64,000 nucleotides of DNA, from contig NZ_CP087164.1 in the NCBI RefSeq assembly GCF_021172045.1, positions 5,766,001 to 5,830,000 of the forward strand, read 5' to 3'. The notes below the pieces were generated by a model. It worked only from the letters and a program-made list of their open reading frames with translations. It ran no database searches and was not told the DNA's origin. Below are positions 1 to 18,114 of this stretch, in pieces. Origin of the DNA: Capillimicrobium parvum. GTDB lineage: Bacteria; Actinomycetota; Thermoleophilia; Solirubrobacterales; Solirubrobacteraceae. The position numbers and the translations under genes are program-made. Numbering within the stretch: position 1 is the stretch's first letter; each line of letters begins with the position of its first letter.

Positions 1-1631
1 GCGTTGGGCTCGCGGAACTCGATGTACTCGCCGGCCTTGAACTCGATGCCGGTGACCTTCGCCTCCATGTACTCCTGCTGCGGCGTGCCCGGGTTCTTGT
101 GCGTCGAGGCCACGAGCCCGTCCCAGCCGCCGAACACGCCGCGCGGCGGGTCCCACTGGCGGTCGCCCTCGCACGAGAACGTCCCGTCGACGAGGAAGCG
201 GTTGCGCCGGATCACGCCGATGCCGCCGCGCCACTTGCCCGGCGCCGCCGGCTCCGGGCGCAGCTCGTACTGGTCGCAGCGCACGGGGAAGCGCAGGTCG
301 AGCTCCTCGATCGGGTTGTTGCGCGTGTTGGCCATGAGGTTGTCGACGGAGTCCATGGCGTCCTTGCCGTACCGGCCGCCGTAGGAGCCCTCGTTGACCT
401 CGAGGTACAGCCAGTACTCGCCGGTCTCCGGCACGAAGCCCGAGTACGAGCAGAAGTGGATCCCCGCCGAGTTGCCGGCGGTGACCTGCTGGGGCAGCTG
501 GTCGGCGAGCGCGAGGATCGTGTTGTCGACCACCCGCTGCACCTGGCAGAAGCGCGAGAAGCACGCCCGCGGGAAGTTCGGGTTGAAGATCGTGCCCTTC
601 GGCGCGACCACCTCCACCGGCCGGAAGACGCCGTCGTTCTGGGGCACGTGCTCGGGGAACGTCGTCTCGTCGAGCAGCAGCGTGCGGATCGCGTAGTACG
701 CGCCGACGAGCAGCGACCCCTCGAACGGGACGTTGTAGCCCGTCGGCACCTCGGCCTGCGAGCCGGTCAGGTCGATCGTGATCGTGTCGCCCTCGACGAT
801 CACCTTCGTCTCCACCCGCAGGCGCACGCCGCGGTTGCGGGCGTCGTCGTCGAGCCACGCCGTCGGCGCCTGGTACTCGCCGTCCGGGATCTTCGCGATC
901 TGGTCGCGCAGCATCTTCTCCGAGTAGTCCATCCACCCGTACGCCGAGCTCATGACCGTCTCGGTGCCGTAGCGCTCGAAGAGCCGCAGCATGCGGTCGC
1001 GCCCGAGCTGGCACGCGGCCATCATCGCGTTCATGTCGCCGCGGTTCATCGTCTCGGTCCGCACGTTGTCGAAGATCATGCGGTCGACGTCGACGTTCAG
1101 CTCGCCCTCGCGGTACCAGCGCAGGCCGTTGTAGAGCTTGGACTCGGCGTAGACGTCGAACGCGTCGGCGTTGATGCCGGGGAACGAGCCGCCGACGTCG
1201 AGCACGTGGGCGGTCACGGCCGCCCAGCCGAGCAGCTCGCCCTCGTGGAAGATCGGCACGGCCACCGCGACGTCCGGGCTGTGCGACGCCCCGAGGTACG
1301 GATGGTTGTGGACGATGACGTCGCCCTCGCGGATGTCGCCGTCGAGGCGGTCGAGGAAGCCGCGGATGTACCAGGGCAGCGAGCCGATGTGCATCGGCGT
1401 CGAGTCCGACTCGCACAGCTCGCGGCCCTGTGCGTCGAAGATCCCGGCGCCGAGGTCCTCGGACTCGCGGATGATCGAGGAGTACGACATCCGGAACAGG
1501 ACGCCGGCCATCTCCTTGGCGATCGCGTGGAACGCGCCGCCGAGGACGCGCATGGTGATCGGGTCGACCTCGACGCGCTCGCGGGTGGGCGCACCGGGGG
1601 CGCGGCCGACCTCGTACGTGGCAACAGACAT
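1..1631 (-). CDS. hyuB: Hydantoinase/oxoprolinase B subunit (HyuB), C-terminus cut by window edge
   Basis: The reverse-strand frame reads from an ATG at 1631 through the left edge, so about 543 residues are visible and the C-terminus is missing. The protein begins MSVATYEVG and has family-typical segments DPITMRVLGGAF, HNHPYLGASHSPDV and CSYSGFVPETGEYW, as in N-methylhydantoinase B, 5-oxoprolinase and caprolactamase B subunits. HyuB works with HyuA in ATP-dependent opening of cyclic ureides or lactams. It starts 17 bp after hyuA, clearly in the same operon. The exact ring substrate cannot be told from sequence. Confidence 0.93.
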   Translation of the reverse strand, partial: MSVATYEVGRAPGAPTRERVEVDPITMRVLGGAFHAIAKEMAGVLFRMSYSSIIRESEDLGAGIFDAQGRELCESDSTPMHIGSLPWYIRGFLDRLDGDIREGDVIVHNHPYLGASHSPDVAVAVPIFHEGELLGWAAVTAHVLDVGGSFPGINADAFDVYAESKLYNGLRWYREGELNVDVDRMIFDNVRTETMNRGDMNAMMAACQLGRDRMLRLFERYGTETVMSSAYGWMDYSEKMLRDQIAKIPDGEYQAPTAWLDDDARNRGVRLRVETKVIVEGDTITIDLTGSQAEVPTGYNVPFEGSLLVGAYYAIRTLLLDETTFPEHVPQNDGVFRPVEVVAPKGTIFNPNFPRACFSRFCQVQRVVDNTILALADQLPQQVTAGNSAGIHFCSYSGFVPETGEYWLYLEVNEGSYGGRYGKDAMDSVDNLMANTRNNPIEELDLRFPVRCDQYELRPEPAAPGKWRGGIGVIRRNRFLVDGTFSCEGDRQWDPPRGVFGGWDGLVASTHKNPGTPQQEYMEAKVTGIEFKAGEYIEFREPN

Positions 1632-1648
1632 GGGTTCGGTACCTCTCT

Positions 1649-3769
1649 CTAGGCGCTCGCGACGGCGGACAGGCCGCCGAGGAGCCTCTCGCGGGCGGAC
1701 TGGTCGACCCAGATGACGATGTTGCCGTAGCGGTCGACCTCGGCGGTCAGCCCCGGCGGGATGATGGTCGTCGAGTCGTACTGGTTGACGACGGCCGGCC
1801 CCTCGATCTTGTTGCCGGCCCTCAGCGCGTCGCGCGCGTAGAACTTCGTCCGCATCTCGCGCAGCTCGCCGTCGACGTGGAACCACGCCTCGCGCTCGTG
1901 GCGCAGCGCGTCGTTCGCGGTCGTGCCGCCGGCATCCAGCTCGGGCAGCTTGAGCTCGGGCATGATGCCGATGCCGCGCACGCGGATGTTGGGGATCTCG
2001 ATGTCGGACTCCTCGAAGCGCCGCGAGTACTCCTTCTCGTGCGCGTCGTGGAAGTCCGCCGTGACTTTGCCGACCCACGCGTCGTCGATCGCGCCGCCGG
2101 GCACGTCGATGCGCAGCTCGTAGCCCTGACCGAGGTACCGGCAGTCGGCCACCCGCTGGATGACGAGGTTGTCGGCGCGGATGCCGTCGTCCTCGAGCTG
2201 CTTGCGCGCCTGGTCCTCGAGCTCGGCGAACCGGGCCTCGAGCTCCGGCGCGTTCAGCTGCGACACGCGCTGGTAGGTCGTGGTCACGTACTCGTAGACC
2301 GTGTCGGTGGCCAGCAGGCCGAGCGCCGCGGTGACGCCCGGGTAGGGCGGCACGATGACGGCCGGCGTGCCGACCTCGAGCGCGATGCCCGCGGCGAAGG
2401 CCGGGCCGGCGCCGCCCTCGGCGATCAGCGCGAAGTCGCGCGGGTCGAAGCCCTTGCGGACCGAGTTCTCCTCGATCGACTGGACCATCGAGTGGCTGGC
2501 GATCTGGATGGCGCCCAGCGACGCCTCCTCCACCGTCATGCCGAGCTGCTCGGCCACCGGCTCGAACGCCGTGCGCGAGAGCTCGGGCTTGAGCTTCATC
2601 GCCCCGCCGAGGAAGTCCTCGGGCAGCAGCCAGCCGAGGTTCACCATGGCGTCGGTCGACGTCGGCTCCGTGCCGCCGCGGTCGTAGGCCGCGGGGCCCG
2701 GCTGGGCGCCCGCCGAGCGCGGGCCGGAGCGGAAGATCCCGCCGCCGTCGACGTAGGCGATCGAGCCGCCGCCCGCGCCGATCGTGTCGACGTCGACCAT
2801 CGGGATCATCGCCTGGTAGGGGCCGACGCGCGTGTCGAGCAGGTGCTTCATGCGCAGCGCGCCGCCCTGGGCGAGGCCGATGTCGGCCGAGGTGCCGCCG
2901 ACGTCGAGCGTGATCACCGAGTCGAAGCCCGCCTGGCGGCCGACCCAGATGCCGCCGACGACGCCCGCGACGGGGCCGGACATGAGCAGGTTGACCGGGC
3001 GCTCGACGGCCCCCTGCGCGGTCGAGACGCCGCTGGCCGACGTCATGAGGTGCACGCCGGTGCGGACGTTCATCGAGCGCAGCTCGTCCTCGAGCCTGCG
3101 CACGTACGTCGCGACCTTCGGGCCGACGAACGCGTTGAGCGCGACCGTGGAGAAGCGCTCGTACTCGCGGTACTGGGGCAGGACCTCCGAGGAGACCGAC
3201 AGGAACGCCTCGGGGAACTCCTCGCGCACGATCTCGGCCACGCGCGCCTCGTGCGCGTTGTTGAGGAACGAGAACAGGAAGCACACGGCGACCGCCTCGA
3301 CGCCCGCCTCCTTGAGCTTGCGCACCTGCTCGCGCGCCGCGTCCTCGTCGAGCGGCACGAGGATCTCGCCCTCGGCGGTGATGCGCTCGGGCACCGTGAC
3401 CCGGTCGCGGCGGCGCGCCAGCGGGTAGCGCTGCCAGGGCAGGTCCTGGTAGTTGGAGAAGTTCAGCGGCTTCTTGTGGCGCGCGATGTGGAGGATGTCG
3501 CGGTAGCCCTGCGTCGTGATCATCCCGACGCGCGCGCCGTTGTGCTCGATGACGATGTTCGTGGCGATCGTCGTGCCGTGGAAGACCTGGTCGAGGTCCC
3601 CGGGCGTCACCCCGGCCTGCTCGGCCAGCTCCCTGATGCCCTGCACGGTGCCGCGCGAGGGATCGTCGGGCGTCGAGGCGAGCTTGTGGATGAGGACGGT
3701 GCCGGACTCGTCGTCCACGTAGATGAGGTCGGTGAACGTGCCGCCGACGTCGACTCCCAGGCGTTTCAT
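1649..3769 (-). CDS. hyuA: Hydantoinase/oxoprolinase A subunit (HyuA)
   Basis: This 706-residue protein is the ATP-binding partner of HyuB. It opens with MKRLGVDVGGTFTDL, the ASKHA-fold phosphate-binding segment of HyuA, and has a second one, TLDVGGTSADIGL, mid-protein. The size matches N-methylhydantoinase A. The frame stays open upstream to about 4147, but the ATG at 3769 is preceded by GGAG and begins exactly at the conserved N-terminus, so I use it. It lies 43 bp downstream of the MDR oxidoreductase and 17 bp upstream of hyuB. The family hydrolyses hydantoins, 5-oxoproline or lactams with ATP; which one is unknown here. Confidence 0.95.
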   Translation of the reverse strand: MKRLGVDVGGTFTDLIYVDDESGTVLIHKLASTPDDPSRGTVQGIRELAEQAGVTPGDLDQVFHGTTIATNIVIEHNGARVGMITTQGYRDILHIARHKKPLNFSNYQDLPWQRYPLARRRDRVTVPERITAEGEILVPLDEDAAREQVRKLKEAGVEAVAVCFLFSFLNNAHEARVAEIVREEFPEAFLSVSSEVLPQYREYERFSTVALNAFVGPKVATYVRRLEDELRSMNVRTGVHLMTSASGVSTAQGAVERPVNLLMSGPVAGVVGGIWVGRQAGFDSVITLDVGGTSADIGLAQGGALRMKHLLDTRVGPYQAMIPMVDVDTIGAGGGSIAYVDGGGIFRSGPRSAGAQPGPAAYDRGGTEPTSTDAMVNLGWLLPEDFLGGAMKLKPELSRTAFEPVAEQLGMTVEEASLGAIQIASHSMVQSIEENSVRKGFDPRDFALIAEGGAGPAFAAGIALEVGTPAVIVPPYPGVTAALGLLATDTVYEYVTTTYQRVSQLNAPELEARFAELEDQARKQLEDDGIRADNLVIQRVADCRYLGQGYELRIDVPGGAIDDAWVGKVTADFHDAHEKEYSRRFEESDIEIPNIRVRGIGIMPELKLPELDAGGTTANDALRHEREAWFHVDGELREMRTKFYARDALRAGNKIEGPAVVNQYDSTTIIPPGLTAEVDRYGNIVIWVDQSARERLLGGLSAVASA

Positions 3770-5509: not shown

Positions 5510-6907
5510 ATGAGCACCGCCGCCGCCCGCCTGGCCGCCTTCACCTCCGCGCTGGAGATCGACCAGATCCCCGCCGAGGTGGTCGATGCCGCCAAGCTGC
5601 ACCTGCTGGACACGCTGGGCTGCGGCCTGGCCGCCCACGCCCTCGACGTCGCCCCCGACGCGCGGGAGGCGATGCTCGAGCCGGGCACCGCCGGCCCCGC
5701 CACGGTGATCGGCGTGAAGTCGGGCCTGCCGTCGGCCGACGCCGCGCTGGCCAACGGGGTCATCTGCCACGCGCTCGACTTCGACGACACGCACACCGGC
5801 GCGATCGCCCACGTCAGCGTCGCGGTCGTGCCCGCCGCGCTGGCCGCCGCGCAGGCGGCCGGTGCGAGCGGCGCCGACACGATCGCCGCGATCGTCGCCG
5901 GCAACGAGGTCGTCACGCGCCTCGGCATGGCGGCGGGCTCGCTGTTCCACGCCCGCGGCTTCCATCCCACCGGCGTGCTCGGCGTCTACGGCGCCACCGC
6001 CGCGGCCGCGCGCCTGCGCGGGCTCGACGCGGAGACGACCACCCAGGCCCTCGGCATCGCCGGCAGCATGGCGTCGGGCATCCTCGAGCATCTCGCCGAC
6101 GGCTCGTCGACGAAGCGCCTGCACCCGGGCTTCGCCGCCCACAACGGCATCGTCGCCGCGCGCCTGGCCGCACATGGGTCGACCGGCCCGAGCACCGTGA
6201 TCGAGGGCCGCTTCGGCCTCTACAACGCGTTCCTCGGCCGCGACGACCTGCCGATCGACGAGCAGCTGGCGGACCTCGGCGAGCGCTGGGAGACCCCGCG
6301 GATCGCCTTCAAGCCCTATCCCGCGTGCCACTACGTCCACGCGTCGCTGGATGCGACCCGCGAGGTGATCGCCGACACGCCGCTCAAGCCGGACGAGATC
6401 GCGGAGATCGTGGCGATCACGACCGAGGCCGGCGTCTCGCTGGTGCTCGAGCCGCTGGAGGCCAAGCACCGCCCGCGCACGGAGTACGACGCGAAGTTCA
6501 GCCTCCCGTACTCGGTGGCCGCGCTGCTCACGCGCGGCGACGTCGACGTGACGACGTACATCGGCGACGCCATCGGCGAGGAGCGCGTGCTCGACCTCGC
6601 CGGGCGGGTCCGCTACGAGGTCAAGGAGTACGACACGTTCCCGCAGGCGCTGCCGGGCGGCATCCGCATCACCACCACCGACGGCCGGGTGCTCGAGGCC
6701 GAGCTCGACTACCAGCGCGGCGGCCCGGAGAACCCGATGAGCGCCGGCGACGTGGGTGCGAAGTTCCGCACGAACGCGGAGCTCGCGCTCAGCGGCTCCG
6801 ACGTCGACGGGCTCGAGGAGGCGGTGCTCGGGCTCGAGCGCCTCGGTTCCCTGGACGCCCTGAAGGCCCTCGGCCGCGCGCGGGCGCAGCAGGGGGCGGT
6901 CGCATGA
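5510..6907 (+). CDS. MmgE/PrpD family protein
   Basis: The 465-residue protein starts at ATG 5510 after a GAGAGGA-type site. It matches the MmgE/PrpD fold throughout: an N-terminal helical domain with HALDFDDTHTGAIAHVSV, the central GFHPTGVLGVYGAT segment and a C-terminal domain with FKPYPACHYVHASLDA. The family includes 2-methylcitrate dehydratase, cis-aconitate decarboxylase and iminodisuccinate epimerase, all acting on polycarboxylates. It overlaps the acyl-CoA dehydrogenase start by 4 bp. The neighbours favour a branched di- or tri-carboxylate substrate, but the precise reaction is open. Confidence 0.93.
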   Translation: MSTAAARLAAFTSALEIDQIPAEVVDAAKLHLLDTLGCGLAAHALDVAPDAREAMLEPGTAGPATVIGVKSGLPSADAALANGVICHALDFDDTHTGAIAHVSVAVVPAALAAAQAAGASGADTIAAIVAGNEVVTRLGMAAGSLFHARGFHPTGVLGVYGATAAAARLRGLDAETTTQALGIAGSMASGILEHLADGSSTKRLHPGFAAHNGIVAARLAAHGSTGPSTVIEGRFGLYNAFLGRDDLPIDEQLADLGERWETPRIAFKPYPACHYVHASLDATREVIADTPLKPDEIAEIVAITTEAGVSLVLEPLEAKHRPRTEYDAKFSLPYSVAALLTRGDVDVTTYIGDAIGEERVLDLAGRVRYEVKEYDTFPQALPGGIRITTTDGRVLEAELDYQRGGPENPMSAGDVGAKFRTNAELALSGSDVDGLEEAVLGLERLGSLDALKALGRARAQQGAVA

Positions 6908-8157: not shown

Positions 8158-8991
8158 ATGGGGGCCGAGATGACATCCGAGACGCCAGAGTCCGACGATG
8201 AGCTTGCTCGGCACGAGCGGGCCGTCTCTCGGCTGACCGTCCCGGAGGAACGGCTGCCCACCGCCCCGGTGAAACGCGTTCGCAAGGCGTACGAGCAGGT
8301 CTACGACCAGCTTCGCGACCTCATCATGCGCGGCGAGCTGAGCCGCGGCGAGCGGCTGCCCAACGAGGCCGTGCTCGCGCGCGAGTTCGGGGTCAGCCGC
8401 GGCACGGTTCGCGAGGCGCTGCGCGTGCTCGCCGCCCAGAACCTCATCCGCACCGCGAAGGGCGCGGGCGGCGGTAGCTTCGTCACGCTGCCGACCGTCG
8501 ACCACATCTCGTCGTTCCTGCACGCGAACATCAGCCTGCTGTCGGAGTCCGAGGACGTCACGCTGCAGGAGTTCCTCGAGGCGCGCGAGCTGCTCGAGGT
8601 CTTCGCCGCGCGCCAGTGCGCGGTCCGGCGCACGCCGGGCGACCTCGAGCGGATGCGCGACACGATCATCGAGGACCCGGCGAAGCTCGGCACCGAGGAG
8701 CACTTCGTCTACAACAAGGAGTTCCACTCCGCGGTGCTCGACGGCTGCGGCAACACGCTGCTGTGCATCGCCGCGCAGCCGGTGTTCTCCGTGCTGCAGA
8801 CGAACCTGGCCCGAGATGCCATGAGCCAGCGCTTCGCCAAGCGCATCAACGAGGACCACCGCGCGATCCTCGCCGCGATCGAGGACGGCGACGCCGAGGC
8901 CGCCGCCGAGCAGATGCAGCGCCATCTCGCATACCTGAGCCGCACGTACCAGAAGATGTGGCGCCAGAGCACCGGCGTCGACGGCGACTAG
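8158..8991 (+). CDS. GntR-family regulator, FCD subfamily
   Basis: A 277-residue regulator with an N-terminal winged helix (about residues 41-110; NEAVLAREFGVSRGTVREAL is the recognition region) and a C-terminal FCD helical domain. His190, His234 and His256 sit where FCD proteins bind a divalent metal. The ATG at 8158 is used; an ATG at 8170 is also possible. It lies inside the catabolic island and is the only regulator gene there, so it is the natural candidate to bind the GTC(C/G)GACAT elements. Just upstream, TCAGACGGG is repeated at 8109 and 8123, possibly an autoregulatory site. Confidence 0.93.
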   Translation: MGAEMTSETPESDDELARHERAVSRLTVPEERLPTAPVKRVRKAYEQVYDQLRDLIMRGELSRGERLPNEAVLAREFGVSRGTVREALRVLAAQNLIRTAKGAGGGSFVTLPTVDHISSFLHANISLLSESEDVTLQEFLEARELLEVFAARQCAVRRTPGDLERMRDTIIEDPAKLGTEEHFVYNKEFHSAVLDGCGNTLLCIAAQPVFSVLQTNLARDAMSQRFAKRINEDHRAILAAIEDGDAEAAAEQMQRHLAYLSRTYQKMWRQSTGVDGD

Positions 8992-9000
8992 TACCGGCGA

Positions 9001-9141
9001 ACGCAACTACGTTCGAGGCGACAGGGATGCCGGGGCGTGCGTGCCGGTGCACGGTGCCCGCCGTCGTACTGGTGGTACGGGTGTGGGCGCCGGGTGCCGG
9101 CAGGCACGGTCCGGCGCCGTCTCGGCCGGACCTAGTTGCGT
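9001..9141 (+). other. Structured intergenic element between the GntR gene and the racemase-like gene
   Basis: The 299-bp gap 8992-9289 holds no convincing gene. A 9-bp inverted repeat, ACGCAACTA (9001-9009) and TAGTTGCGT (9133-9141), encloses two further hairpins at 9065-9079 and 9086-9118. This could be the folded 3' untranslated region of the GntR mRNA or a small RNA. It ends before the promoter at 9198, so it is not a leader of the downstream operon. Confidence 0.4.
9086..9118 (+). terminator. Strong hairpin, probable terminator of the GntR gene
   Basis: GGCGCCGG pairs with CCGGCGCC (8 bp). Inside, GTGCC pairs with GGCAC around a GGCA loop, with a GGT bulge on the 3' side. No U-run follows, which is common in high-GC actinobacteria. 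It lies about 95 bp after the GntR stop. Confidence 0.5.
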
Positions 9142-9197: not shown

Positions 9198-9226
9198 TTG
9201 ACAACGCCCCCGGGGGCAGATAGAAC
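9198..9226 (+). promoter_or_regulatory. Promoter of the racemase-like to lyase operon
   Basis: TTGACA (9198-9203), a 17-bp spacer and TAGAAC (9221-9226) form a near-consensus promoter upstream of the gene at 9290. The element at 9232-9243 falls over the predicted transcription start, as expected for a repressor site. Confidence 0.75.
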
Positions 9227-9289: not shown

Positions 9290-10066
9290 GTGCGGATCAA
9301 GTACATCATCCCGTTCCCGTTCGACGAGGCCGGCGTGCGCGCCCGCGCCGCGCAGATCCCGGAGGGGCTGCTCGGACCCGACGTGGACGTGGATTTCGTG
9401 CCCGTGCGCAACAGCTGCTTCCTGCTGGACTCCTACTACGAGTCCATCCTGTTCGACGCCTACATCGCGGAGGCGGGGCTCCAGGCCGAGGACGAGGGCT
9501 ACGACGCCGTCGTCATGGACACGGTGTCGGACTCCGGGCTGCAGGTCCTGCGCTCCCGGCTGTCGATCCCGGTCATCGGGCCCGGCCAGGTGGCGTTCCA
9601 CCTCGCCGGCGTGCTCGGCCAGAAGTTCTCCGTGGTGACCATGTGGGACACCTGGGGCTTCTTCTACCGCAAGCTGTTCAAGGAGTACGGGCTCACCGAC
9701 AACGTCGCCTCCATCCGCGCGGTGAACATCCCGCCGGACGTCGAGCAGCTGTTCGCCGGCAAGGAGGAGGAGATGTACCAGCGCCTCACCGACGAGGCGA
9801 TGAAGGCCATCGAGGAGGACGGGGCCGACGTCATCGTGCTCGGCTCGACGACGATGCACCAGGCCGCCGCGTACCTGACCGAGCACCTGCCGTGCCCGCT
9901 CATCAACCCGGGTCCGGCGGCCGTGGCGTTCGCCGAGACCGTCGTGCGCCTCGGGCTCAGCCACTCGAAGCTGGCCTTCCCGACGCCCGGCACGCTGCAG
10001 GACGAGAAGCTGTTCTCGCTCGTCGGCGCGGACGGCGGGACGCGGCTGTCGCCCGCCGCGGGCTGA
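9290..10066 (+). CDS. Asp/Glu/hydantoin racemase superfamily protein lacking both catalytic cysteines
   Basis: A 258-residue protein starting at GTG 9290. The layout is that of hydantoin and Asp/Glu racemases: YDAVVMDTVSDSG around residues 71-83 and VIVLGSTTMH around 181-190. In active racemases these positions read like ACxxDPG and LGCxGM; here Thr78 and Ser186 replace the two cysteines that carry out proton transfer. It is therefore unlikely to racemise by the usual two-base mechanism and may be an isomerase, decarboxylase-like or binding protein. It is the first gene of the operon that continues with the DehI-like protein and the hydro-lyase. Confidence 0.85.
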   Translation: MRIKYIIPFPFDEAGVRARAAQIPEGLLGPDVDVDFVPVRNSCFLLDSYYESILFDAYIAEAGLQAEDEGYDAVVMDTVSDSGLQVLRSRLSIPVIGPGQVAFHLAGVLGQKFSVVTMWDTWGFFYRKLFKEYGLTDNVASIRAVNIPPDVEQLFAGKEEEMYQRLTDEAMKAIEEDGADVIVLGSTTMHQAAAYLTEHLPCPLINPGPAAVAFAETVVRLGLSHSKLAFPTPGTLQDEKLFSLVGADGGTRLSPAAG

Positions 10067-10109: not shown

Positions 10110-10946
10110 GTGAACGCGGGCGACGCCGTGATCGTGCGCGGCCCGCTGCGGGGCTCGGGCGAGGTCGCCGAGGACGAGGCGACGGGGGCCGTGGCGGACG
10201 CCTACGCGCGCCTGCGCGACGCGCTCGGCGTCGACTTCCTGCCCACGGTCGTGCGGATGCTCGGCCGCTACGACCGCCTGCTGACCGCGACCACGGACGC
10301 GATGGCCGGCGTGCTCGGCGGCCCCGAGGGCGCGGCGTTCGCCGGCGCGGCGCGGGCGCGCGGGACCGAGGCGGCCGAGCGACTGCCCGGCGGCGCGCTC
10401 GCCGCGGGGGCCGCGGCGGCGGACGTCCGCGTCCTGCTCGAGCGCTACAACGTCGCGAACCCGCGCAACCTCCTGCTCGTGACGGCCCTGTCGGCGGGGC
10501 TGGCGGACGCCGAGCCCGCGCCGGGAACGACGCCGGCGCCGCCGCCGGCCGGCGTCGCCACGGCCGCGGGCGCGCCGGCGGTGATGTACGCACCGCTTCC
10601 CGCGCCGGTGCCCGGCCTGCTCGACGACATCCGCGCCTGCCACGGCGGCTTCACGGTGCCGGGCATGTGGCGCGAGCTCGCGGCGAGCCGGCCGGCCGTG
10701 GCAGAGCGGGCATGGCGGCTCGTGCGCCCGCTCGCCGGCGAGGACGAACTGCACGCCGCGATCGCCGACGTCGCCGCACGCGCCGCGGCCGTCGTGCGCG
10801 GGCAGGCGATGCCGAATGTCGCGGACCTCGGCTACGACGCCGAGGCGCAGGCCGACATCGCGGGGATCGTCACCTGGTTCCGACTGGGTATCCCCACGAT
10901 GGTGATCGAGATCGAGTACCTGCGCCACCGCCTGCGAGGTGCCTGA
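10110..10946 (+). CDS. All-helical protein, tentatively DehI-like
   Basis: A 278-residue protein starting at GTG 10110 behind a GGAGG site. The sequence is Ala/Arg-rich with two pseudo-repeat halves, each containing helices that resemble the AhpD/DehI fold (for example GVDFLPTVVRMLGRYDRLL and HGGFTVPGMWRELAASRPAV). This resembles the halocarboxylic-acid dehalogenase DehI family, but I cannot assign catalytic residues. Its stop overlaps the LeuC-like start by one base (TGATG), so it belongs to the same transcript. A role in handling a 2-substituted acid would fit but is unproven. Confidence 0.6.
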   Translation: MNAGDAVIVRGPLRGSGEVAEDEATGAVADAYARLRDALGVDFLPTVVRMLGRYDRLLTATTDAMAGVLGGPEGAAFAGAARARGTEAAERLPGGALAAGAAAADVRVLLERYNVANPRNLLLVTALSAGLADAEPAPGTTPAPPPAGVATAAGAPAVMYAPLPAPVPGLLDDIRACHGGFTVPGMWRELAASRPAVAERAWRLVRPLAGEDELHAAIADVAARAAAVVRGQAMPNVADLGYDAEAQADIAGIVTWFRLGIPTMVIEIEYLRHRLRGA

Positions 10947-12226
10947 TGGCCGAGCCGCGGACCATCGCCCAGAAGATCCTCGCCGCCCACGGCGTGGAGG
11001 ACGTCACGCCTGGCGCGTTCGGCCTGGCGGACGTCGCGCTCGTCATGGCCAACGAGGTGTCCGGCTCCGTGGCGCTGACGGAGTTCGAGCGCACCGGCGC
11101 CGAGCGCGTGTTCGACCCCGACCGCGTCGCGCTGTTCGCCGACCACTTCGCGCCCGCCAAGGACGTCCGCAGCGCCGAGCTCGTCGGCCGACTCCGGCGC
11201 TTCGCGCGCGACCAGGGCATCGAGCACTACTGGGAGGCCGGAAGCACCGCGAACGCCGGCATCGAGCACACCGTGCTGCCCGAGGAGGGCCTGATCGCGC
11301 CGGGTGACTTCATCGTCGGCGGCGACTCGCACACCTGCACCTACGGCGCGTTCGGCGCGCTGGGCACCGGCATGGGGTCGACCGACATCGCGGTCGCCCT
11401 CGCGCTCGGCCAGACGTGGGTGCGCGTGCCGCAGTCGATCCGCGTCGAGTACCGCGGCTCGTGCGGCGCATACGTCACCGGCAAGGACCTGATCCTCGCG
11501 TACCTCGCCCACTCGGGCGTCTCCGGCGCCACGTACGCGGCGCTCGAGTTCGCGGGCCCGCCGATCGACAGGACCTCCGTCGACGAGCGCATGGCGCTGT
11601 GCAACATGGCCGTCGAGGCCGGCGCCAAGACCGGCATCGTCGCCGCCGACGAGACGACGCTCGAGTGGCTCGCCCCGAAGGTCGGCGACCGCGCGCTCGA
11701 GCCGGTACTCCCCGACGACGACGCGGTCTACGAGCAACGCGTCGAGATCGGCCTCGACGGCATGCCGCCGCTCGTCGCGCGGCCGCCGTCGCCCGGCGAC
11801 GTCGCGCCGGTCGGCGACGTCGCGGGCGCGCACGTCGACCAGGTGTACGTCGGCAACTGCTCGAACGGCACGATCACCGACCTGCGCCAGCTCTGCCGTC
11901 TGCTCGAGGGCCGCAGCGTCGCCCGCGGCACCCGGCTGATCGTCGTGCCCGCCAGCCAGCGCGTCTACCGCCAAGCGCTGACCGAAGGGCTGCTCGAGAC
12001 GATCGTCGCGGCGGGCGGCGCGGTGTCGATGCCCACTTGCGGCGCCTGCTTCGGCGGCCACATGGGCATCATCGCCGCCGGCGAGACCGCGGTGGCCACG
12101 ACGAACCGCAACTTCCGCGGCCGGATGGGCCACCCGGACTCGCAGGTGTTCCTCGCCAACGCCTACGTGGCCGGCGCCGCCGCGGTCACCGGCGAGCTGT
12201 GCGACCCCGCCGAGGTGCTGGGGTGA
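10946..12226 (+). CDS. Aconitase/LeuC-family hydro-lyase large subunit
   Basis: A 426-residue Fe-S dehydratase. The three [4Fe-4S] ligands are visible as Cys305 (YVGNCSNG), Cys365 and Cys368 (PTCGACFGG), and the GGDSHTCTYGAFG and GTGMGSTD signatures are intact. The size fits LeuC/HacA and the dimethylmaleate hydratase DmdA branch. No leucine genes are nearby; instead a small subunit follows in overlapping frame and then a lyase of the methylisocitrate/dimethylmalate-lyase family. I infer hydration of an unsaturated or methylated dicarboxylate such as a maleate or citraconate derivative rather than leucine biosynthesis. Confidence 0.92.
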   Translation: MAEPRTIAQKILAAHGVEDVTPGAFGLADVALVMANEVSGSVALTEFERTGAERVFDPDRVALFADHFAPAKDVRSAELVGRLRRFARDQGIEHYWEAGSTANAGIEHTVLPEEGLIAPGDFIVGGDSHTCTYGAFGALGTGMGSTDIAVALALGQTWVRVPQSIRVEYRGSCGAYVTGKDLILAYLAHSGVSGATYAALEFAGPPIDRTSVDERMALCNMAVEAGAKTGIVAADETTLEWLAPKVGDRALEPVLPDDDAVYEQRVEIGLDGMPPLVARPPSPGDVAPVGDVAGAHVDQVYVGNCSNGTITDLRQLCRLLEGRSVARGTRLIVVPASQRVYRQALTEGLLETIVAAGGAVSMPTCGACFGGHMGIIAAGETAVATTNRNFRGRMGHPDSQVFLANAYVAGAAAVTGELCDPAEVLG

Positions 12227-12735
12227 GCTCCGCACGCATCGAGGGCCGCGCGATCAAGCTCGGCGACGACGTCAACACCGACAACATCCTTCCCGGGCCG
12301 TACCTCAACCTGACCGACCCCGACGAGCTCGGCGAGCACCTGCTCGAGACCTACGACCCGGAGATCGCCGCCCGCGTGGCGCCCGGCGACATCCTCGTGG
12401 CCGGCCGCAACTTCGGCATGGGCTCCTCGCGCGAGCAGGCGCAGGTCGCGATCCGGGCGCGCGGCGTGCAGGCGATCGTCGCCGCCGGCTTCGCGCGCAT
12501 CTTCCTGCGCAACGCGATCAACGTGGGCCTGCCCGTGATCGAGGCGCCCGAGGCCGCCGCCGCGATCGCCGACGGGGACACGATCGCGATCGACCTCGAG
12601 GACGGGGTCGTCGAGTGCGGCGGCGAGCGCTTCGAGACCGTGCCGCAACCGCCGTTCGTGGCGGAGATCATGGACGCGGGAGGCCTCGTCGAGTGGGCGC
12701 GCCGCCGGATCGCCGCACAGACACCGAACCCATGA
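12223..12735 (+). CDS. Aconitase/LeuD-family hydro-lyase small subunit
   Basis: A 170-residue swivel-domain protein starting at GTG 12223, overlapping the large-subunit stop by 4 bp. Diagnostic segments are DDVNTDNILPGPYL near the N-terminus and AGRNFGMGSSREQAQ, the substrate-loop motif of LeuD-type subunits. Its length is typical for archaeal-type LeuD/HacB/DmdB. It must pair with the preceding large subunit. The lyase gene starts 15 bp after its stop. Confidence 0.92.
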   Translation: MSSARIEGRAIKLGDDVNTDNILPGPYLNLTDPDELGEHLLETYDPEIAARVAPGDILVAGRNFGMGSSREQAQVAIRARGVQAIVAAGFARIFLRNAINVGLPVIEAPEAAAAIADGDTIAIDLEDGVVECGGERFETVPQPPFVAEIMDAGGLVEWARRRIAAQTPNP

Positions 12736-12750
12736 AGGGATGACACGCGA

Positions 12751-13599
12751 ATGACCGATCGACCGAGCCTGCGCGAGCGCCTCGAGGACCCGAGCATCGT
12801 CGTCGCCATGGGCGTCCACGACGGCCTGACCGCGCGGATCGCCCAGCGTGCCGGGTTCGACGCCTTCTACCACGGCGGCTACGCCGTCGCCGCGCACCAC
12901 CACGGCCTGCCCGACATCGGCGTCGTCGGCCTCGCCGAGATGGTCCAGAGCGTCCAGCGCGTCACGAGCGTCTCGACCACCCCGCTCATCGTCGACTGCG
13001 ACACCGCGTACGGCGCCATCCCCGGCGTGAAGCGCACGACGCTCGAGATGGAGCGCGCGGGCGCCGCGGCGATCCAGATCGAGGACCAGATCTTCCCGAA
13101 GAAGTGCGGGCACATGGAGGGCAAGGAGGTCATCCCGCGCGACGAGATGGTCCTGAAGATCCGCGCCGCCGTCGCCACCCGCCGCGACCCGTCGATGCTG
13201 GTGATCGCCCGCACCGACGCGCTGCAGCCGCTCGGCCTCGACGAGGCGATCGACCGCTGCAACGACTACGCGGAGGCAGGCGCCGACCTCGTGTTCGTGG
13301 ATGCGCCCGGCTCGCGCGACCAGCTCGCCGAGATCGCCCGGCGCGTCGACGCGCCGTCGGTGGCGAACATGAGCGAGACGGGCCGCACGCCGGCGATGAC
13401 CGCCGACGAGCTGCAGGAGCTCGGCTACCGCATCGTGATCTTCCCCTCGACGCAGACGTGGGTCATCGCGCGCGCCTACGAGGAGGTGTGCCGCGAGCTG
13501 CTCGAGCACGGGACGACGGCCGGCTTCGCCGACCGCTTCATGCCCTTCGACGAGGTCAACGAGCTGCTCGGCATCCAGGAGCTCGAGCGGGTCGTGTGA
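12751..13599 (+). CDS. Isocitrate lyase/PEP mutase family lyase (dimethylmalate/methylisocitrate lyase type)
   Basis: A 282-residue TIM-barrel enzyme. The Mg-binding residues VDCDTAYG (Asp82, Asp84), IEDQ (Glu111, Asp112) and the catalytic loop KKCGH (117-121) are all present. Family members cleave methylisocitrate, 2,3-dimethylmalate or oxaloacetate-like acids to pyruvate or glyoxylate plus a second acid. Following a LeuCD-type hydratase it most resembles the last two steps of nicotinate degradation (dimethylmaleate hydratase and dimethylmalate lyase). Its last codons lie in the first copy of the tandem repeat at 13578. Confidence 0.92.
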   Translation: MTDRPSLRERLEDPSIVVAMGVHDGLTARIAQRAGFDAFYHGGYAVAAHHHGLPDIGVVGLAEMVQSVQRVTSVSTTPLIVDCDTAYGAIPGVKRTTLEMERAGAAAIQIEDQIFPKKCGHMEGKEVIPRDEMVLKIRAAVATRRDPSMLVIARTDALQPLGLDEAIDRCNDYAEAGADLVFVDAPGSRDQLAEIARRVDAPSVANMSETGRTPAMTADELQELGYRIVIFPSTQTWVIARAYEEVCRELLEHGTTAGFADRFMPFDEVNELLGIQELERVV

Positions 13600-16732: not shown

Positions 16733-17497
16733 ATGAGGGCAGGCGGATCGCGGACCGCGATCGTGACGGGCGGTGGCGGAGCCATCGGCGGCCACGCCGC
16801 CCAGGGGCTGGCCGAGCGCGGGTTCTCCGTGCTCGTCGTCGACCTGGACCTCGACCGCGCGCACGCGACCGCGGAGCGCATCGAGGCCGCGGGCGGCACC
16901 GCGTCGGCGTACTCGGCCGACGTGAGCGATCCCGAGGCGGTGGCGGGGTACGTCGCCGCCTGCGTGGAGCGTTACGGCGACCCGGACGCGTTCTTCAACA
17001 ACGCCGCCTACGAAGGCGCCCTGGCGCCGATCGCCGACTATCCGCTCGACGAGTTCGACCGCACGATGGCCGTCAACGTCCGCGGCGTCTTCCTCGGGCT
17101 GCGCGAGGTGATCCCGGCGATGCGCCGGCGCGGCGGCGGCGCGATCGCCAACGTCTCGTCACAGGCGGGCGTGCGCGGCGTCACGAACCTCTGCGCCTAC
17201 TCGGCCAGCAAGCACGCCGTCGTCGGCCTCAGCCGCGGCGCGGCGCTCGAGGAGGCGCCGGGCATCCGCGTCAACTGCGTCGCGCCCGGACCGACCGACA
17301 CCCGGATGATGCAGGACATCGAGGCGACGGTTCGCGCGCAAGGCGGCGACCCGTCCGGCTTCGTCGACCGGATTCCCGTGGGCCGGTACGGTCAGCCGGA
17401 GGAGATCGCCGCGTTCGTGGTGTGGCTGCTGGCCGATGCGCCGCCGTTCCTGACCGGCGCGGTTCTCTCGATCGACGGAGGCATGACGACGGCATGA
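16733..17497 (+). CDS. Short-chain dehydrogenase/reductase
   Basis: A 254-residue SDR with TGGGGAIGG as cofactor loop, NNAAYEG, and YSASK active site. VVDLDLDRA after strand 2 favours NAD(H). I use ATG 16733 with GGGAGG seven bases upstream; a TTG at 16718 is the only alternative. It lies 15 bp after the lyase and overlaps the isochorismatase start, so it is part of the same transcript. The substrate is unknown. Confidence 0.9.
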   Translation: MRAGGSRTAIVTGGGGAIGGHAAQGLAERGFSVLVVDLDLDRAHATAERIEAAGGTASAYSADVSDPEAVAGYVAACVERYGDPDAFFNNAAYEGALAPIADYPLDEFDRTMAVNVRGVFLGLREVIPAMRRRGGGAIANVSSQAGVRGVTNLCAYSASKHAVVGLSRGAALEEAPGIRVNCVAPGPTDTRMMQDIEATVRAQGGDPSGFVDRIPVGRYGQPEEIAAFVVWLLADAPPFLTGAVLSIDGGMTTA

Positions 17498-18114
17498 GCA
17501 CCGAGGACGTCTACAGCGAGCGCGGCTTCGGCGGCCGGCAGGGCGCCGGCGAGCGGCCGTGCCTCGTGGTCATCGACATGAACTACGGGTTCACCGATCC
17601 GGAGTCGCCGCTGCACTGCGACACCGACGACGCCGTCGCGTCAATCGCCCGGCTCCTGGACGCCGCGCGCGAGGCCGGCGCGCCCGTCGCGTTCACGACG
17701 CTCGAGTACGACGAGGGCGCCAAGCAGGTCGCCAAGGCGTTCATCGCCAAGTCGCCCGGCCTGCTCGTGCTCGCGCCCGGCACCCGCTGGCCGCAGATCG
17801 ACGAGCGGATCGCGCCGCGCGAGGGCGAGCCGCTGCTCTACAAGCTCTTCGCGTCCGCGTTTCACGGCACGCCGCTGGCCGCCATGCTCACGTCGCACGG
17901 CTGCGACACCGTGATCGTCACGGGCGCGTCGACGTCGGGCTGCGTGCGCGCCACGGCCGTCGACGCGCTCCAGCACGGCTACCGGGTCATCGTCCCGCGC
18001 GAGGCGGTGGCCGACCGCGCTCCCGGCGCGCACGACGCCTCCCTGACCGACATCGACGCGAAGTACGGCGACGTCGTCGGCACCGACGAGGCCGTGGCGA
18101 TCCTGCGGGGATGA
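17494..18114 (+). CDS. Isochorismatase-fold amidohydrolase
   Basis: A 206-residue cysteine hydrolase with the full triad: Asp28 (VVIDMNYGFTDP), Lys117 (LLYKLFASAFHGT) and Cys150 (TGASTSGCVRAT). The sequence resembles N-carbamoylsarcosine amidase more than true isochorismatases. It overlaps both flanking SDR genes by 4 bp. Because hyuAB-type enzymes open N-methylhydantoin to N-carbamoylsarcosine in creatinine breakdown, this gene could act one step after the HyuAB complex encoded at 1-3769; that link is inference. Confidence 0.9.
   Translation: MSTEDVYSERGFGGRQGAGERPCLVVIDMNYGFTDPESPLHCDTDDAVASIARLLDAAREAGAPVAFTTLEYDEGAKQVAKAFIAKSPGLLVLAPGTRWPQIDERIAPREGEPLLYKLFASAFHGTPLAAMLTSHGCDTVIVTGASTSGCVRATAVDALQHGYRVIVPREAVADRAPGAHDASLTDIDAKYGDVVGTDEAVAILRG

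Follow-up and report, generated by a model that had tools for sequence, protein, structure and literature searches.

An Asp/Glu-racemase-fold subfamily with Thr and Ser aligned to the two catalytic cysteines

The locus and its genes

The analysed window is a stretch of 64,000 nucleotides from Capillimicrobium parvum (contig NZ_CP087164.1, positions 5,766,001 to 5,830,000), in which a gene encoding a Cys-free protein of the Asp/Glu racemase fold lies among the following features. KpAllR denotes the Klebsiella pneumoniae allantoin racemase.

3 to 3769, reverse strand: hydantoinase/oxoprolinase B (3-1631, cut by the window edge) and A (1649-3769)
5510 to 6907, forward strand: MmgE/PrpD-like protein, of a family that adjoins the subfamily in some other genomes
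8158 to 8991, forward strand: GntR/FCD regulator, immediately upstream of the racemase-fold gene
9198 to 9226, forward strand: candidate -35/-10 pair, TTGACA-17-TAGAAC
9290 to 10066, forward strand: Cys-free Asp/Glu-racemase-fold protein, 258 aa, GTG start, ORF intact
9518 to 9523, forward strand: codons of Asp77 and Thr78 (domain-1 catalytic position; Cys79 in KpAllR)
9845 to 9859, forward strand: codons of Ser186-Thr187-Thr188-Met189-His190 (domain-2 catalytic position, Cys184 in KpAllR, and the new His)
10110 to 10946, forward strand: second gene of the run, 278 aa, weakly like PF10778 DehI (E 0.0075, below the cut-off)
10946 to 12226, forward strand: large subunit of the aconitase / 3-isopropylmalate dehydratase family
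12223 to 12735, forward strand: aconitase-type small subunit (LeuD/DmdB family TIGR02087, above the cut-off)
12751 to 13599, forward strand: isocitrate-lyase/PEP-mutase family lyase (prpB 290 bits, below the cut-off of 354)
17494 to 18114, forward strand: isochorismatase-domain hydrolase

The racemase-fold gene heads a run of five genes, separated by gaps of 43, -1, -4 and 15 bases, after which the next gene lies on the other strand. The initial annotation described it as the first gene of a promoter-led operon. Its position at the head of a five-gene run that includes a hydro-lyase holds, but the promoter is not established: by the rule of the scanner there is no promoter-like site upstream of the gene, and the pair listed above, which the scanner did not report, was picked out by eye. 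An inverted repeat, CGTAC-TGGTG-GTACG (9065-9079), which falls below the reporting length of the repeat search, lies between the GntR and racemase-fold genes and is a possible operator.

The second gene of the run is rare, and of 296 Actinomycetota genomes searched, two apart from its own gave weak matches; no match was found on the plasmids searched. The PDB relatives of the lyase include the petal death protein and 2,3-dimethylmalate lyase. At locus L013, which encodes a relative with ~83-84% amino-acid identity to the window protein, a GntR/FCD relative also lies directly upstream of the racemase-fold gene, which is not followed there by the aconitase and lyase genes. Comparison of these two racemase-fold genes gave a dN of 0.12 and a dS of 0.63 (NG86), corresponding to a dN/dS of ~0.2, and the window gene is under purifying selection relative to L013. 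A sequencing error or a decayed gene was rejected on the basis of this ratio and the recurrence of the same residues in other genomes. The gene is present as a single copy at its own locus, and two further subfamily copies, with 58% and 49% identity, are encoded ~36 and ~40 kb away in the same genome.

Positions 1-21513 of the window and the neighbouring loci L034-L036 (5721000-5766100 of the genome) make up a catabolic island of ~65 kb. It contains several hydantoinase/oxoprolinase A and B genes, one of them a fused A-B of 1291 aa, together with isochorismatase-like hydrolases, amidases, CoA-transferases, lyases and three Cys-free racemase-fold copies.

Catalytic positions and conservation of the subfamily

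The window protein matches the Pfam profile PF01177 (Asp_Glu_race) with 111.7 bits against a cut-off of 31 (E 5.6e-32), and this match, together with the pseudo-symmetric fold of two half-domains, places it in the Asp/Glu/hydantoin racemase superfamily. No named NCBIfam family scored above its curated cut-off, the best being panB (22.1 bits, cut-off 207.55) and asp_race (20.8 bits, cut-off 93.1). The closest solved relatives by sequence are the Klebsiella allantoin racemase chains 3qvk (E 2.7e-21) and 3qvj (2.5e-20), followed by the Pseudomonas allantoin racemase 5lfd and then by the Pyrococcus hydantoin racemase and the fungal OpaE. An AlphaFold2 model built on 22 relatives (pLDDT 90.3, pTM 0.87) has allantoin racemases as its best structural matches, with VIA-align Z scores of 28 and rmsd values of 2.1-2.4 Å over 234-240 residues. 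KpAllR (HpxA, 3qvj/3qvk) is alike in fold and length (Z 28, rmsd 2.3-2.4 Å, 27% identity), and the Pseudomonas fluorescens allantoin racemase, PfAllR (5lfd/5lg5), is alike in fold (Z 28.2, rmsd 2.1).

In the sequence alignment, Thr78 and Ser186 correspond to positions 79 and 184 of the Klebsiella enzyme, which are both Cys in chain 3qvj and both Ser in chain 3qvk. In the model, the two residues directly follow the equivalent strands of the two half-domains (E73-76 and E181-184). Judged by this alignment, Thr78 and Ser186 occupy the positions of the two catalytic cysteines, and the protein thus lacks the one Cys per half-domain that characterizes the two-cysteine racemases of hydantoin, allantoin, Asp and Glu. 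KpAllR has Cys79 and Cys184 where the subfamily has Thr78 and Ser186, and the subfamily differs from it further in its rewritten loops and in the new Trp119 and His190. In PfAllR, the first Cys is replaced by Gly according to the sequence alignment, but the second is kept, unlike in the subfamily. The protein encoded at L043:1123-2154 is likewise allantoin-racemase-like, and it shares with 5lfd/5lg5 a Gly for the first catalytic Cys and a retained second Cys.

A profile search over all fetched loci separated 74 non-redundant sequences scoring at least 286 bits from 51 scoring at most 153 bits. Members of the upper group were collected through their similarity to known ones and are not an unbiased sample, but the gap of 133 bits between the groups is not set by the two alignment columns. 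L131, a divergent tandem partner at 153 bits, was counted in neither group, leaving 50 distant relatives. Position 186 is Ser in all 74 subfamily members and never Cys; position 78 is Thr in 67, Ser in five and Ala in two, and again never Cys. Among the 50 distant relatives, Cys is found at position 78 in 42, at position 186 in 43 and at both in 42, and the eight exceptions comprise four divergent tandem partners (in L028, L030, L033 and L130, all counted in this group), one Gly/Cys, two Thr/Glu (Actinomadura) and one Ala/Gly. The replacement of both catalytic cysteines, as proposed from the initial reading, is therefore confirmed. Cys43 and Cys202, which would have to stand at the catalytic positions for that proposal to fail, are excluded by conservation: they are Cys in six and two of the 74 members, respectively, and a role of either as a substitute nucleophile was rejected for the same reason. 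Nor does Cys exceed 65% of the 74 rows in any alignment column of the upper group.

The subfamily has a set of near-invariant residues of its own. Ser80 and Thr187 are present in 74/74 members, compared with 2/50 and 5/50 distant relatives; Trp119 in 70/74 and His190 in 69/74 (otherwise four Tyr and one Ser), both against 0/50; Asp77 in 69/74 (five Asn) against 2/50; Pro207 in 73/74 against 11/50; and Gly208 in 72/74 against 3/50. Asp81 and Arg88 are both invariant in the 74 sequences. The surrounding motifs had been described as conserved, which holds for the fold and for the positions of D81, R88 and M189, kept in most distant relatives as well, but not for the loops around both catalytic positions: the subfamily has DT.SDSG and GSTTMH, against mostly AC.GDPG or AC.DDTG, and GC[GA]GM, in the distant relatives.

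In a tree of 85 rows (87 before sequences shorter than 205 aa were dropped; both trait columns were left in), the 37 subfamily rows and three divergent tandem partners form one branch with a support of 98/92. The three partners are nested inside the subfamily branch, and thus appear to have lost the Thr/Ser motif secondarily. The Cys-free subfamily is, with little doubt, real and distinct.

Second copies of tandem pairs without the Thr/Ser motif (Asp/Gln, Ala/Ser and similar) were seen at L028:15675-16418, L030:15213-16454, L033:12763-13527, L130:1719-2954 and L131:2181-2960; those of L028, L030 and L033 adjoin an intact first copy. The Actinomadura loci L026 and L027 encode another divergent group of the fold, whose two catalytic positions are Thr and Glu.

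Hosts and gene neighbourhoods

The subfamily is present in Actinomycetota and in Pseudomonadota, and its genes frequently stand in tandem pairs. MAGs of Actinomycetota yielded close relatives, as did Pseudomonadota including Parapusillimonas, Jiella, Fulvimarina and a Methylorubrum MAG; plasmid-borne ones came from Neorhizobium, Tistrella, Novosphingobium, Rhizobium and Variovorax. Matches at subfamily level (>285 bits) were obtained in 2 of 396 Actinomycetota genomes (the window's own included), in 6 of 398 Pseudomonadota genomes and in 17 of 385 genomes of the class of Jiella (both including the search centre), three of the last having at least six matches each. The literature searches on the subfamily and its pathway, some of which used narrowly worded queries, returned no description of members without both cysteines.

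We compared the genes within 11 kb of 46 subfamily loci and of 33 loci chosen from the listed distant-relative places, all at least 10 kb long. Shorter loci (among them L013, L015-L017, L023 and L163) and L166, which is the same stretch as L030, were left out, and L034 was counted once although it has two copies. Because subfamily loci served to train the neighbour models and many of the loci are closely related, the following contrasts are optimistic. An isocitrate-lyase/PEP-mutase (ICL/PEP-mutase) gene lies near 13/46 subfamily loci against 0/33 distant-relative loci, a fumarate-reductase-like FAD dehydrogenase (flavocytochrome-c/fumarate-reductase/TcuA-like) near 12/46 against 0/33, a hydratase (aconitase or PrpD) near 12/46 against 1/33, an isochorismatase-like gene near 16/46 against 0/33, and hydantoinase/oxoprolinase A or B (HyuA/B) near 15/46 against 3/33; the last two families are those represented at 17494 and at the left edge of the window. 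Tandem copies were counted at 19/46 subfamily loci and at none of the 33 control loci by a 2 kb rule, which missed a pair in L024. The contrasts for amidase (14/46 vs 5/33), CaiB (7 vs 2) and transporter genes (10 vs 2) were not significant. A PuuE-like (allantoinase-type) gene, on the other hand, is found more often near the distant relatives (11/33 vs 7/46), as expected if many of these controls are allantoin racemases, and the distant-relative loci lack the lyase and the FAD dehydrogenase of the subfamily loci.

In an even alphaproteobacterial draw, which yielded 25 loci (L166 included) from 14 of 17 genomes, the lyase was found at four loci, the FAD dehydrogenase at six, an isochorismatase-like gene at six and HyuA/B at five, and seven loci (L148, L155, L157, L162, L167, L168 and L169) had none of the tested families; the low-GC loci L148, L162, L164, L165, L167 and L173 were scanned by ORF. 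Since many loci of this draw lack the tested neighbours, the subfamily probably has a part in more than one pathway.

An aconitase pair and a lyase of the same families as those in the window are encoded on the Rhizobium and Neorhizobium SOG26 plasmids (L031 and L032), where they accompany two subfamily copies, two PuuE-like proteins, a fumarate-reductase-like FAD dehydrogenase and a transporter of the branched-chain amino-acid type. Tistrella and N. petrolearium have an MmgE/PrpD protein in place of the aconitase of these plasmid loci. Taken together, the neighbours suggest the breakdown of cyclic amides or imides and of dicarboxylates. A second type of setting was seen in alphaproteobacteria, where a UbiD-family decarboxylase (L149:7403-8827 and its relatives in L170 and L025) lies near tandem subfamily copies, with two or three isochorismatase-like genes and a TenA/haem-oxygenase-like protein.

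Possible chemistry of the Cys-free proteins

The Asp/Glu racemase fold is the textbook case of paired-Cys catalysis, and the known departures considered here, arylmalonate decarboxylase (AMDase) and PfAllR, keep one Cys. A conserved subfamily without either offers a natural way to test the abilities of the fold in the absence of thiols. The genes are now labelled just 'aspartate/glutamate racemase family protein', and a known enzyme activity would help to name the set.

For OpaE, PMC12661438 gives a residual activity of 4.8% for the C90S mutant and of at most 0.3% for C199S and C90S/C199S. With Thr and Ser at the two places and the Cys-to-Ser mutants of OpaE nearly inactive, the window protein should therefore not be a normal two-base thiol racemase, in agreement with the earlier view that two-Cys racemisation is unavailable to it. 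A changed role, which had also been proposed, is likely, since the replacement is fixed throughout a supported branch that has near-invariant residues and gene neighbours of its own. The Cys-free proteins probably perform chemistry different from that of the thiol racemases, during the bacterial breakdown of ring-shaped nitrogen compounds.

The window protein belongs to a coherent Cys-free subfamily that, in our reading, works in catabolic clusters, many of which would open cyclic amides or imides and process dicarboxylates. For the reaction class, where we infer both substrate and reaction, the candidate that we prefer is a cysteine-free isomerase acting on a carboxylate intermediate, which is a distinct possibility. 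Such an enzyme would move a proton next to a carboxylate, as a racemase or epimerase or as a double-bond or cis-trans isomerase, on a substituted succinate or maleate or a half-amide, and its product could feed the hydratase and the isocitrate-lyase-type enzyme. Ser80, Ser186 and Thr187 may form a dioxyanion hole that holds the carboxylate, like that of AMDase, and Asp77, Asp81 and/or His190 may take over proton transfer from the thiols. The fumarate-reductase-like dehydrogenase, the hydratase and the isocitrate-lyase-type enzyme could plausibly form a chain that leads from a substituted succinate to a cleaved malate, and a step beside this chain would fit the known skills of the fold, namely racemising an acidic carbon, isomerising maleate and decarboxylating malonates. 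Against this reading, D77 and H190 are each replaced in 5/74 members and T78 is Ala in 2/74, so that none of the three is strictly essential; the neighbourhood is mixed as well, and 33/46 subfamily loci have no ICL/PEP-mutase. With somewhat greater reserve, we suggest that thiol-free machinery, a Ser/Thr dioxyanion hole with acid-base catalysis by Asp77/Asp81/His190, may have evolved in the Asp/Glu racemase fold for a reaction undescribed for it, as part of a route, so far unreported, that would lead from cyclic imides or amides by way of substituted dicarboxylates to a hydratase and to cleavage of the isocitrate-lyase type.

Among enzymes of this fold, maleate cis-trans isomerase works next to an amide-hydrolase step in nicotinate breakdown, and it has two catalytic cysteines and needs both. 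Its structures (4fq5 and 2xed) are alike in fold, with 12-17% identity to the window protein, and one Cys of 2xed forms a covalent succinylcysteine, according to the title of the PDB entry. The subfamily has neither cysteine, as Ser186 is invariant and no member has Cys at position 78.

Given that the nearest structures are allantoin racemases, that genes for cyclic amides are often nearby and that PfAllR has Gly at the first Cys position by sequence, the protein could still be a racemase that uses weaker or other bases on a substrate of the hydantoin, allantoin or imide type whose C-H is acidic; hydantoin racemase is said, in PMC8142540, to use an enolate intermediate. We consider this unlikely: Ser at the second position nearly abolishes the activity of OpaE, and the whole loop is rewritten, beyond the Cys alone. 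The same loss of activity and the absence of both catalytic thiols could instead mean that the protein is non-catalytic, a ligand-binding or structural subunit and perhaps a partner or regulator of a cluster enzyme, which would suit the frequent tandem copies and the degenerate second copies, such copies evidently being able to persist without the motif. The strict motif of the main copies (S80, D81, S186 and T187 all 74/74) and the purifying selection acting on the window gene, which has no second copy at its locus, make this reading improbable as well.

A decarboxylase resembling AMDase, with the rebuilt loops as a dioxyanion hole, a malonate-type or beta-keto acid intermediate and a non-Cys proton donor, is quite unlikely. 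AMDase shares the fold, the absence of a domain-1 Cys (Gly74) and a Ser in the dioxyanion register, T75/S76 being part of the dioxyanion hole and C188 the proton donor according to PMC4996985. In a motif register read by eye, S76 corresponds to S80 of the subfamily, present in 74/74, and C188 to S186; AMDase is also a structural neighbour of the model (VIA Z 17.6, rmsd 3.0, 16% identity to the window protein), and the occurrence of Ala for T78 in two members indicates that the domain-1 position is not strict. However, where AMDase combines Gly74 with the retained Cys188, the window protein has Thr78 and Ser186, the latter being Ser throughout the subfamily; the allantoin racemases are much closer in structure, and no obvious malonate-type pathway is found among the neighbours. 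A hydrolase, in which Ser186, aided by His190, would act as a nucleophile on a cyclic imide, a lactam or a half-amide, seems very unlikely. It would agree with the strict conservation of Ser186 and Thr187 and the near-constant His190, and with the many neighbours that, by family, handle cyclic amides and half-amides; but the nearby HyuAB, PuuE-like and isochorismatase-like proteins could already cover such steps, His190 is Tyr or Ser in five members, and we know of no hydrolase in the Asp/Glu racemase fold.

The clusters resemble a catabolic route, for which no described counterpart was found. A dimethylmaleate hydratase/dimethylmalate lyase-type route, which belongs to nicotinate fermentation, was rejected except as an analogy: the LeuD/DmdB match of the small subunit and the kinship of the lyase to 2,3-dimethylmalate lyase point to it, but the petal death protein scores higher with the window lyase than 2,3-dimethylmalate lyase does, with PrpB about the same, and a literature search for such a cluster found no paper. 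The breakdown of maleimide or succinimide was considered as the exact substrate, and a literature search on it for this cluster gave no lead. The opening of cyclic imides by a PuuE-like protein of the deacetylase fold is proposed, in PMC9304392, for HxnM, a relative of a P. putida imidase.
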